A stretch of DNA of 64,000 nt from assembly GCA_902566925.1 (NCBI GenBank), contig CACFKO010000002.1:62001-126000 (forward strand), read 5' to 3'. Position 1 is the stretch's first letter. Each line of letters begins with the position of its first letter. Under the pieces are notes generated by a model. That model did no database searches, was not told where the DNA came from, and was given only the letters and a program-made list of their open reading frames with translations. The translations under genes were made by a program, and so were the position numbers. This document shows positions 37,315-62,399 of the stretch, piece after piece. Source of the DNA: an uncultured Pelagibacteraceae bacterium. Lineage in GTDB: Bacteria; Pseudomonadota; Alphaproteobacteria; Pelagibacterales; Pelagibacteraceae.

Positions 37315-37344
37315 CAAATCAAAATATTATGCTAAGCTTATAAC

Positions 37345-37508
37345 ATAACGGGAGAGACTATTTAAATGTAGCGCCGAAGGAGCAACCCCCCGGAAACTCT
37401 CAGGCAAAAGGACCGTTATTGTAATAACTCTGGAAAGCAGGCGTTAGCCTCACCGAAGGAGTAAATCTCTCAGGTTCTTAGACAGATGGGGATAAGAAGG
37501 GTTATTAC
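37345..37508 (+). promoter_or_regulatory. Tandem glycine riboswitch upstream of gcvTHP
   Basis: Two glycine aptamers in series fill the leader of gcvT. Aptamer 1 is closed by ATAACGG (37345-37351) with CCGTTAT (37413-37419). It contains GCGCCGAAGGAGCAA and CTCTCAGGCAAAAGGACCG. Aptamer 2 contains CACCGAAGGAGTAA, CTCTCAGG and GACAGATGGGG. Its outer stem GTAATAAC (37421-37428) pairs perfectly with GTTATTAC (37501-37508), three bases before the gcvT ATG at 37512. CCGAAGGAG and CTCTCAGG are diagnostic of this class. The purine-rich AGAAGGG lies inside the outer stem's 3' flank, so control is probably at translation start. Activation by glycine is known for this riboswitch family; the mechanism here is inferred. 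Confidence 0.96.
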
Positions 37509-60286: not shown

Positions 60287-61420
60287 ATGATTAACTCACT
60301 AGGTATAAAAAAGTCCCCAAAAGATACGAAAATAGTCGTGGCTATGTCCGGAGGTGTTGATTCTTCTGTCGTAGCTGGTCTTATGAAAAGAGAAGGTTAT
60401 AACGTAACCGGAATAACATTGAAGTTATACGACGATACAAAATCCTCAAAAAAAGGAAGACAATGTTGCGCAGGAAGAGACATCATTGATGCAAAAAGAG
60501 TTTCTCAAACTCTAGGTATTGAACATAAAATTCTGTATTATCAAAAAAAATTTAAAAAAGATGTAATAGACTCTTTTATTGATAGTTATACCGCAGGGGA
60601 AACACCTATACCCTGTGTACAATGCAATCAAACTGTAAAATTTAGAGATTTATTTAAATTTGCAAAAAAATTAAGCGCAGATGCTTTAGTTACAGGACAT
60701 TATGTTTTGAGACACGAATATAATGGGGGAGGCGCAATGTATCGTGCTGAAGATAAAAACCGAGATCAAAGTTATTTTTTATTTAGCACTACCCAGGAAC
60801 AACTTGATTATTTGAGGTTTCCATTAGGTTCAATTAATAAATCTGAAACAAGAAAGATTGCAGATAAACTAAAACTTAATGTAGCAGAAAAGCCCGACAG
60901 CCAAGACATCTGCTTTGTGCCTAACGGTAATTATGCATCGGTTATTGAAAAATATAGACCACAATCATTTAAAAAAGGAGACATTCTTGATTTAAACGGT
61001 AGAAAGTTGGGCTCTCATGATGGAATTATCAACTATACTATTGGACAAAGAAAAGGGATCAAAATTTCTAGTCAAGAACCACTCTACGTGATTGAAATAA
61101 GAGCCAAGAACAACTCAATCGTGGTGGGACCACAAGATTCCTTAAATATAAAAAAATTGTATTTAAGAAATATTAATTTGTTAACTGATCGCAATATTTT
61201 TGCGAAAGACATTTTTATCAAAGTAAGATCTACGGGCAAACTTCTTAATGCAAAGGTAAACATTAATAAAGATTCAGCAATCGTTGATATTCTGCAAGAT
61301 GAAAAAGGAATTTCGCCAGGTCAAGCCTGTGTATTTTATTCAAAAGATAATCTTGGCGAGAGAGTTTTAGGCGGCGGTTGGATTGATAAAACTACCAACA
61401 AAAATTATCCACACAACTAA
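60287..61420 (+). CDS. mnmA: tRNA 2-thiouridylase MnmA
   Basis: A 377-residue enzyme that thiolates U34 of tRNAs for Lys, Glu and Gln. The ATP-binding P-loop is [18 protein letters not shown] (about residue 18). Catalytic Cys residues are in [14 protein letters not shown] (about 107) and [13 protein letters not shown] (about 205). [19 protein letters not shown] and [22 protein letters not shown] finish the C-terminal domain. It is monocistronic: a candidate structured RNA begins about 70 bases after its stop. Length is typical. Confidence 0.96.
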
Positions 61421-61489
61421 CAGACCGTTAGTTAAAACAACTAAAAAGTGATGTCTATTTTTTTTTGGCAATGTTATATTTTATTCGAA

Positions 61490-61667
61490 TTGGGAGGCAA
61501 CTCCCAACTGGCCAGTTAAGGAAAGGCCGAGAGGTTCAAGCTTAACGGGCAGAAAGTTCTACAGAGTAGTACTAAAATTGTAGGACGGGAGGCTTGGCGG
61601 TAGTACTAAAACGACGAGCCAAAACTTAAAGGTTAGGTCACGAAAGTGACTTAATCTTTAGTTTTTT
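61490..61667 (+). ncRNA. Candidate structured RNA, family not recognised
   Basis: This gap between convergent genes is clearly more GC-rich than its surroundings and folds by hand into ordered elements. TTGGGAG-GCAA-CTCCCAA (61490-61507) is a GNRA hairpin. GGCC/GGCC and GTTAAG/CTTAAC (61510-61546) can form an H-type pseudoknot. GTTCTAC/GTAGGAC (61556-61586) and GGCTTG/CGAGCC (61591-61620) present the same loop GTAGTACTAAAA. A 14-bp stem capped by GAAA ends in TTTTTT (61627-61667). GNRA loops exist only on the plus strand, so that strand is favoured. TATATT at about 61475 could be the -10 box. The sequence does not show the key motifs of RNase P, tmRNA, SRP or 6S RNA, and no ORF fits. Confidence 0.75.
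61627..61667. terminator. Long GAAA-capped terminator hairpin of the candidate RNA
   Basis: AAAGGTTAGGTCAC (61628-61641) pairs through all 14 positions (three G-T) with GTGACTTAATCTTT (61646-61659) around GAAA. AGTTTTTTA follows on the plus strand. On the minus strand the stem could also end transcripts of the membrane-protein gene at 61689-62399. Confidence 0.8.
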
Positions 61668-61688
61668 ATAGGCTCGTGACTTAATTTG

Positions 61689-62399
61689 TTACACAACTAA
61701 GCCCTTTTTCCAAAAAAGAAAAGTTAATAAATAGAAGAATATAACACCGATAAAATAGTTCCATTCAAGGGCATGTTTAAAGTGGACGTTGCCTTCAGAC
61801 ACCACTATTGGCAAACTAACTATTGCAACAATTACTAAAATGGTAACTAAAATTATCTTTAATATCAAAACATAGTTATTAATATCATTGTAAATATAGG
61901 TTTTTAGCTTAAAAAATCTATAAACCAAAAGTGACTGGGCTACGATTTCAAAAATAATAAAACCGAGCAATACAAATCTTCTAAAGAATTTATATAGATC
62001 ATAATCAAATTTAACTCCTAACAAAATAGAATGAATGATAAGAAAAATTGCTGAAAGTATTCCAAAAATTTTAAAAAGATTATTTTTATTTTCAAAATTT
62101 TGATAGAAATTTATTAATTTATTAGTTTTTATCCAATATATTATTAATAATATAGAAGCAAAAATCATCGAAGGTTTAAATATTAAATATGCAGGATATG
62201 TTCTTGCTGTTCGACTTATAGAAACTCCTCCGTCAAAATAAGGAAAGGTGCTTCCTGATCGACCAATTTGGTCAACACTAAAAATTGTATTATTAAGAAT
62301 TTCGTAATTTACAGAAATAAATAAGCATAGATTAATAGCTACAAAAGGAATTATAAATATCCATAAACTCAACTTTTTAATTTGAGTTCTAAGTTCCAT
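61689..62399 (-). CDS. Integral membrane protein, resembles Frag1/DRAM/Sfk1-like layout
   Basis: A 236-residue protein with six to seven membrane segments. After the first segment there is a polar loop, FSVDQIGRSGSTFPYFDGGVSISRTARTYPAYL, then PSMIFASILLIIYW. FFRRFVLLGFIIFEIVAQSLL and VHFKHALEWNYFIGVIFFYLLTFLFW follow. This looped six-helix plan, with an S.S.T-type motif before helix 2 and HALEWN before the last, recalls the Frag1/DRAM/Sfk1 (PGAP2-like) family, but I am not certain. It is in the same direction as accC, with a 148-base gap that may hold a mini-gene. Confidence 0.55.
   Translation of the reverse strand: MELRTQIKKLSLWIFIIPFVAINLCLFISVNYEILNNTIFSVDQIGRSGSTFPYFDGGVSISRTARTYPAYLIFKPSMIFASILLIIYWIKTNKLINFYQNFENKNNLFKIFGILSAIFLIIHSILLGVKFDYDLYKFFRRFVLLGFIIFEIVAQSLLVYRFFKLKTYIYNDINNYVLILKIILVTILVIVAIVSLPIVVSEGNVHFKHALEWNYFIGVIFFYLLTFLFWKKGLVV

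Follow-up and report, generated by a model that had tools for sequence, protein, structure and literature searches.

The IMES-2 locus downstream of mnmA

In the window, the whole 64,000-nucleotide stretch of DNA analysed here, the mnmA gene (60287-61420; MnmA by NCBIfam NF001138) lies upstream of what was originally predicted to be an undescribed RNA element. The Rfam covariance-model check (cmscan) showed instead that positions 61483-61622 of the plus strand encode an IMES-2 RNA, a member of an already-known family (RF02035), with a score of 148.5 bits against a gathering cut-off of 54.7. The window RNA covers positions 1-141 of the 141 in the RF02035 model, and all four consensus hairpins are present. 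The IMES-2 motif was reportedly first described by Weinberg and colleagues in 2009. For the gene convergent to IMES-2 (61689-62399), neither NCBIfam nor Pfam gave a family match. Elsewhere in the window, at 37339-37425 of the plus strand, there is a glycine riboswitch aptamer (71.4 bits).

Two further identities for IMES-2 were considered and rejected. As for 6S RNA, the window RNA matches RF02035 and not RF00013, the 6S RNA family. A search for RF00013 was negative in all of 24 SAR11 genomes and positive in 5 of 14 control genomes; taken alone, this result is compatible with the idea that IMES-2 may stand in for 6S RNA. An assignment as SRP RNA was set aside because 7 of 10 SAR11 genomes have a separate RF00169 match away from IMES-2 (6 of them over the cut-off); the search for RF00169 gave no match in the other 3 of the 10.

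A conserved element upstream of IMES-2 and a terminator downstream

Upstream of IMES-2, at 61438-61452 of the plus strand, lies a conserved element, CAACTAAAAAGTGAT, which is probably a promoter or activator site. In 84 of 85 loci, a 19-nt element resembling ATCAACTAAAAAGTGATAC begins 45-48 nt upstream of IMES-2. The window holds a single copy of the exact 15-mer; when up to 3 mismatches are allowed, its matches there are at chance level (7 vs. 7.6 expected). Across 10 genomes, a search allowing up to 1 mismatch gave 41 matches, compared to 23 for the reversed pattern; the element precedes IMES-2 in 10/10 genomes, with one match each, and the other 31 of the 41 lie elsewhere. Six of the 8 exact matches in these genomes precede IMES-2, the other two being one site common to two genomes, at which there is no RNA family match. 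We rejected the notion that the element defines a general promoter class, its matches away from IMES-2 being near background in the ten genomes. With a weight matrix for the element, built on 12 of the 85 instances, 192 of 220 hits above 13 bits were followed by IMES-2 marks. The form ATCAAC-tAaaAA-GTGATA was seen before IMES-2 in every gene context encountered, divergent relatives included.

Closer to the RNA, a -10-like hexamer, TATATT, can be read by eye at 61475-61480 of the plus strand as a weak candidate; a consensus scan of 61400-61720 gave no plus-strand sigma-70-like site. On the 3′ side, a terminator scan identified a hairpin (stem 61626-61661) followed by a U-run (61626-61667, plus strand), and by our own rule a hairpin with a U-run lies downstream of IMES-2 in 72 of 85 aligned loci. 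The combination of a conserved upstream element and a 3′ terminator suggests that IMES-2 is a stand-alone small RNA with its own control. IMES is absent from the main text of a study mapping SAR11 start sites (PMC5069720).

Distribution of IMES-2 and sampling of homologues

A search pattern derived from the conserved P2 hairpin region, without loop letters, matched at least 120 stretches in genome contigs, and all of those listed carry titles naming Pelagibacter, Pelagibacteraceae or Pelagibacterales. IMES-2 was found in 200 of the 397 genomes of the order to which the L001 locus belongs (SAR11) and in 3 of the 385 genomes of a class sample, all three of which are also in the order set. The genomes with IMES-2 are those of marine bacteria, as given for the membership of RF02035. 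The remaining 197 of the 397 SAR11 genomes had no IMES-2 match; 38 of them were re-searched with our own model at lax filters, yielding none to an E-value of 0.001 (best two, 0.26 and 0.96). A second search of the order with this model was positive in 139 of 297 genomes, with no newly found genome among the matches listed. Variants were added from relatives of two genomes, G778 (31 of 61 with a match) and G316 (25 of 61 with a match).

Two alignments were made. The first, A1, consists of 45 sequences hand-picked for diversity out of 70 representatives. The second, A2, adds 40 later loci to give 85 sequences, 82 of them distinct, and omits L209, L222, L226 and L230, which are duplicates of L069, L116, L120 and L002, respectively. 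The model used for aligning A2 treats the loops as unpaired, so that the alignment is not fitted to the loop pairs discussed below. A larger set of 186 loci includes near-copies; it omits the partial loci L095, L178, L032 and L121, the probable chimera L022, and L122 (identical to L001), while L192 and L193 fell outside the scan.

In L022 (263-401), one of the omitted loci, IMES-2 is interrupted within loop 1, where an integrase-like frame takes over. Integrase genes are found near IMES-2 in L178 (1-98, 649-1590) and, on the opposite strand, in 41 loci; because related integrase genes occur near IMES-2 there, the break in L022 was judged to be probably an amplification chimera, and a role for IMES-2 as an integration site was rejected. 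A partial IMES-2 (2047-2149) sits at the end of the IMG/VR contig L121; the join is probably an assembly chimera, and phage carriage of IMES-2 was not retained.

Two hairpins of IMES-2 present the same loop in the window

The Rfam structure line places four hairpins on the plus strand. P1 (61490-61507) has a GCAA loop, and its helix cells are 100% paired in the 82 distinct sequences. P2 (61508-61552) is a long hairpin with internal loops and a GAGA end loop; 95.6% and 95.8% of the cells of its helices 2 and 3, respectively, are paired in the same sequences. P3 (61556-61586) has a stem of 8 bp, with two-sided change at all 8 pairs in A2, and P4 (61591-61620) has 9 stem positions. P3 and P4 are the two hairpins of the original prediction, which located them correctly and gave their stems slightly too short. 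A mismatch in P4 is conserved but swaps sides, being G.A in 77/82 and A.G in 5/82 sequences.

As had been predicted, the two loops carry an exact repeat: GTAGTACTAAAA is present at both 61566-61577 and 61600-61611, 12 nt with 100% identity, and is the sole direct repeat within 61423-61680. When the 140-nt RNA was put through 20,000 mononucleotide shuffles, a repeated 12-mer arose in 5 of them. Both copies sit in hairpin loops of the Rfam model, those of P3 (loop 1) and P4 (loop 2). The claim that the core of the repeat, TAGTACTA, is its own reverse complement also holds true, and an 8-bp duplex between the loops is predicted at -9.0 kcal/mol. We number the core of loop 1 (UAGUACUA, 61567-61574, plus strand) p1 to p8, and that of loop 2 (UAGUACUA, 61601-61608, plus strand), its predicted pairing partner, q1 to q8.

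The predicted fold of 61490-61667 is highly stable (-70 kcal/mol, z -8.1, with 0/200 shuffles as stable); it adds three pairs inside loop 1, by a method that cannot show a loop-loop contact. The printed RF02035 model shows both loops unpaired. Since a covariance model cannot represent a crossing contact, the unpaired loops there do not prove that the contact was new to its authors. Among the matches listed for the literature on IMES-2, RF02035, SAR11 noncoding RNA and kissing pseudoknots in Rfam, the loop-loop contact was not found in print; the 2009 description may already contain it.

Loop complementarity is conserved among homologues

If the two loops pair, complementarity between them should be kept in related genomes. 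Indeed, the central positions of loop 1 and loop 2 are Watson-Crick complementary in 81 of the 82 distinct homologues, whereas only 65 have the same letters there in both loops. Loop 1 is self-complementary at these positions in 66/82 sequences and loop 2 in 65/82; all 16 sequences with a non-palindromic loop 1 still pair with loop 2. The states of p4p5/q4q5 in the 82 sequences are CG/CG (56), CA/UG (11), UA/UA (9, the state of the window), UG/CA (3), UU/AA (2) and CG/CU (1). Five complementary loop combinations were found, such as UAGUUCUA opposite UAGAAC, and locus L229 has UAGUUCUA opposite UAGAACUA, which are complementary while being neither palindromic nor identical. Both central pairs are kept in 184 of the 186 loci, near-copies counted. 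The p4-q5 pair is CG in 67 of the 82 sequences, UA in 14 and other in 1, while p5-q4 is GC in 60, AU in 20 and UA in 2, with 0 broken; neither is ever G-U.

Pairing is weaker towards the ends, with p8-q1 failing in 15/82 and p3-q6 in 5/82 sequences, and the core is weaker in the CAUCGCUG loops that are common in the ogt context. In sequences with an additional base in loop 2, a one-base bulge might allow p1 and p2 to pair as well; in the window, which has no such base, all 8 bp can form. Loop pairing is thus kept while loop identity varies, and we conclude that selection maintains a loop-loop helix of about 6-8 bp. The loops of the window are identical because a palindrome equals its own complement.

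When the 9,316 column pairs are ordered by mutual information, the central pairs come 5th and 11th, among the stem pairs, with p3-q6 only 700th. Displacing one strand by as many as three columns lowered pairing to at most 55.5% of cells, compared to 95.7% in register. In a shuffling control that ignores kinship, 0/500 shuffles matched the percentage paired, the number of two-sided-change cells or the covariation score; the remaining two of the five measures were unexceptional, being reached by 88 and 110 of the 500. In a poorly resolved tree from which the loop columns had been left out, p4-q5 shows at least 7 changes of state and p5-q4 at least 5. Just two independent contrasts for each pair fall on well-supported branches; both have the expected direction, and they are too few for a sign test.

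We then compared all 9,316 pairs with a tree-aware null of our own design (150 replicates). For p5-q4 this gave E = 0.04. The value for p4-q5 was E = 0.42, about that of a pair outside the annotated structure, 127-152 (E = 0.40). Five pairs have E < 0.05, all of them within the proposed structure including the kiss. Limiting E to the six proposed pairs gives, by arithmetic, about 3e-5 for p5-q4 and 3e-4 for p4-q5. Overall, 36 of 45 pairs, kiss included, have two-sided change in the 82 sequences, and the compensatory changes that the original prediction called for were found in both stems and both loops of related genomes. Predicted duplexes were more stable between cognate loops than between re-dealt ones (mean -9.8 vs. 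-7.9 kcal/mol), with 0/2,000 permutations as low. IMES-2 thus has covarying Watson-Crick pairs between two hairpin loops, the mark of a kissing loop, and the base-paired contact first suggested by the window's own letters is borne out. Judged by sequence comparison, the RNA is a known family with a well-supported loop-loop contact.

Pairing within one molecule or between molecules

We consider it likely that the IMES-2 loops pair within one molecule, closing P3 and P4 into a compact 3′ domain; we infer that a cis contact is favoured because the two hairpins are neighbours. We built a rigid-body model from A-form stems, the linkers of the window and its 4-nt joint; it reached clash-free closure of the 8-bp kiss from 29 of 30 starts and of a 6-bp kiss from 30 of 30. 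The model is permissive, since with the joint removed the 8-bp kiss still closed in 13/28 cases and the 6-bp kiss in 30/30; what it shows is that a cis contact is sterically feasible.

An RNA that displays the same loop twice might instead offer a repeated protein-binding or antisense site, with identity being the selected property, as the original prediction had also proposed. The 12 identical bases of the window are what such a site would look like, and the diagnostic positions are identical in 65/82 sequences; however, 16 of the 17 sequences in which they differ keep both complementary pairs, and those with UAGUUCUA/UAGAAC or UAGUGCUA/UAGCAC contradict a repeated site outright. With complementarity at 81/82, selection on loop identity appears extremely improbable. 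Were loop 1 of one IMES-2 molecule to pair with loop 2 of a second, and vice versa, to give a doubly kissed dimer or chain, this would fit the observed covariation equally well, and palindromic loops such as those of the window can also pair with themselves. Indeed, the loop 1 self-duplex is predicted to be as stable (mean -10.1 kcal/mol) as that between loops 1 and 2 (-9.8 kcal/mol), because most sequences are palindromic. The energies thus provide no argument against self-pairing; it is the non-palindromic sequences that supply one, and the part of the earlier dimer proposal that relied on a single self-complementary loop, a property that is not conserved, falls away, leaving the dimer between loop 1 and loop 2. 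Against this dimer, adjacent hairpins with short joints can kiss in cis, both in the rigid-body model and in the crystal cases of a table in PMC7337929 (3-4 nt joints, 5-bp kissing helices between adjacent hairpins), and we regard it as rather unlikely.

The kiss might also act as a switch in a cis-acting leader, the terminator controlling the next gene. The gene contexts of IMES-2 speak on both sides of this proposal. In 41 of 175 loci, IMES-2 has a divergent integrase-like gene on one side and an ogt-like gene on the other, and a small gene plus an ogt-like gene are found in 35 and 16 more; in all of these the next gene is a same-strand ogt-cluster gene (ogt family match), as a leader would have it. 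In 53 of the 175, however, the window included, mnmA precedes IMES-2 and the next gene is convergent. The other arrangements number 30, divergent relatives have still other neighbours, and the terminators differ between gene contexts. A mainly cis-acting leader is therefore most improbable. One section of PMC2704228 sets none of its four motifs beside mnmA or ogt. A bolder idea would make IMES-2 an RNA machine specific to SAR11, with a loop contact that assembles several molecules or acts as a switch and a dedicated activator reading the near-exclusive upstream element; this strikes us as unlikely.

In the contact within one molecule that we favour, p3-p8 of loop 1 (GUACUA in the window) would pair with q1-q6 of loop 2 (UAGUAC), and p1-q8 and p2-q7 would extend the kiss to 8 bp in the window. 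The kiss would set P3 and P4, with their 4-nt joint, side by side as a compact 3′ domain. We infer that the contact is made in cis and forms in the cell, and the domain may serve as a scaffold, probably for a protein, within what would be an independently transcribed RNA.

Comparison with known RNAs and implications

Side-by-side hairpins held by loop-loop pairing are found in the purine and lysine riboswitches, which IMES-2 would resemble in this respect; unlike them, it has no ligand and no fixed downstream gene. The packaging RNA of phi29 has interlocking complementary loops that pair between molecules. Like IMES-2, it carries two complementary loops in one RNA; its pairing is between molecules, whereas a contact within one molecule is favoured for IMES-2. 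PDB entries 4wfl and 4uyk are SRP Alu RNAs. Both entries, as tabulated in PMC7337929, have neighbouring hairpins with joints of 3 and 4 nt and kissing loops, the arrangement proposed here for IMES-2. They have a 5-bp kiss and stems of 4-5 bp, in contrast to the proposed 6-8 bp kiss and the stems of 8-9 positions in IMES-2.

The host group of IMES-2, SAR11, is among the commonest bacterial groups in the ocean. The covarying loop contact determines how the 3′ half of this RNA is laid out and so provides a firm clue to its fold. It could be built into the family model, and it allows a clean compensatory-mutation test, while the conserved upstream element offers a handle for finding the regulator of IMES-2.
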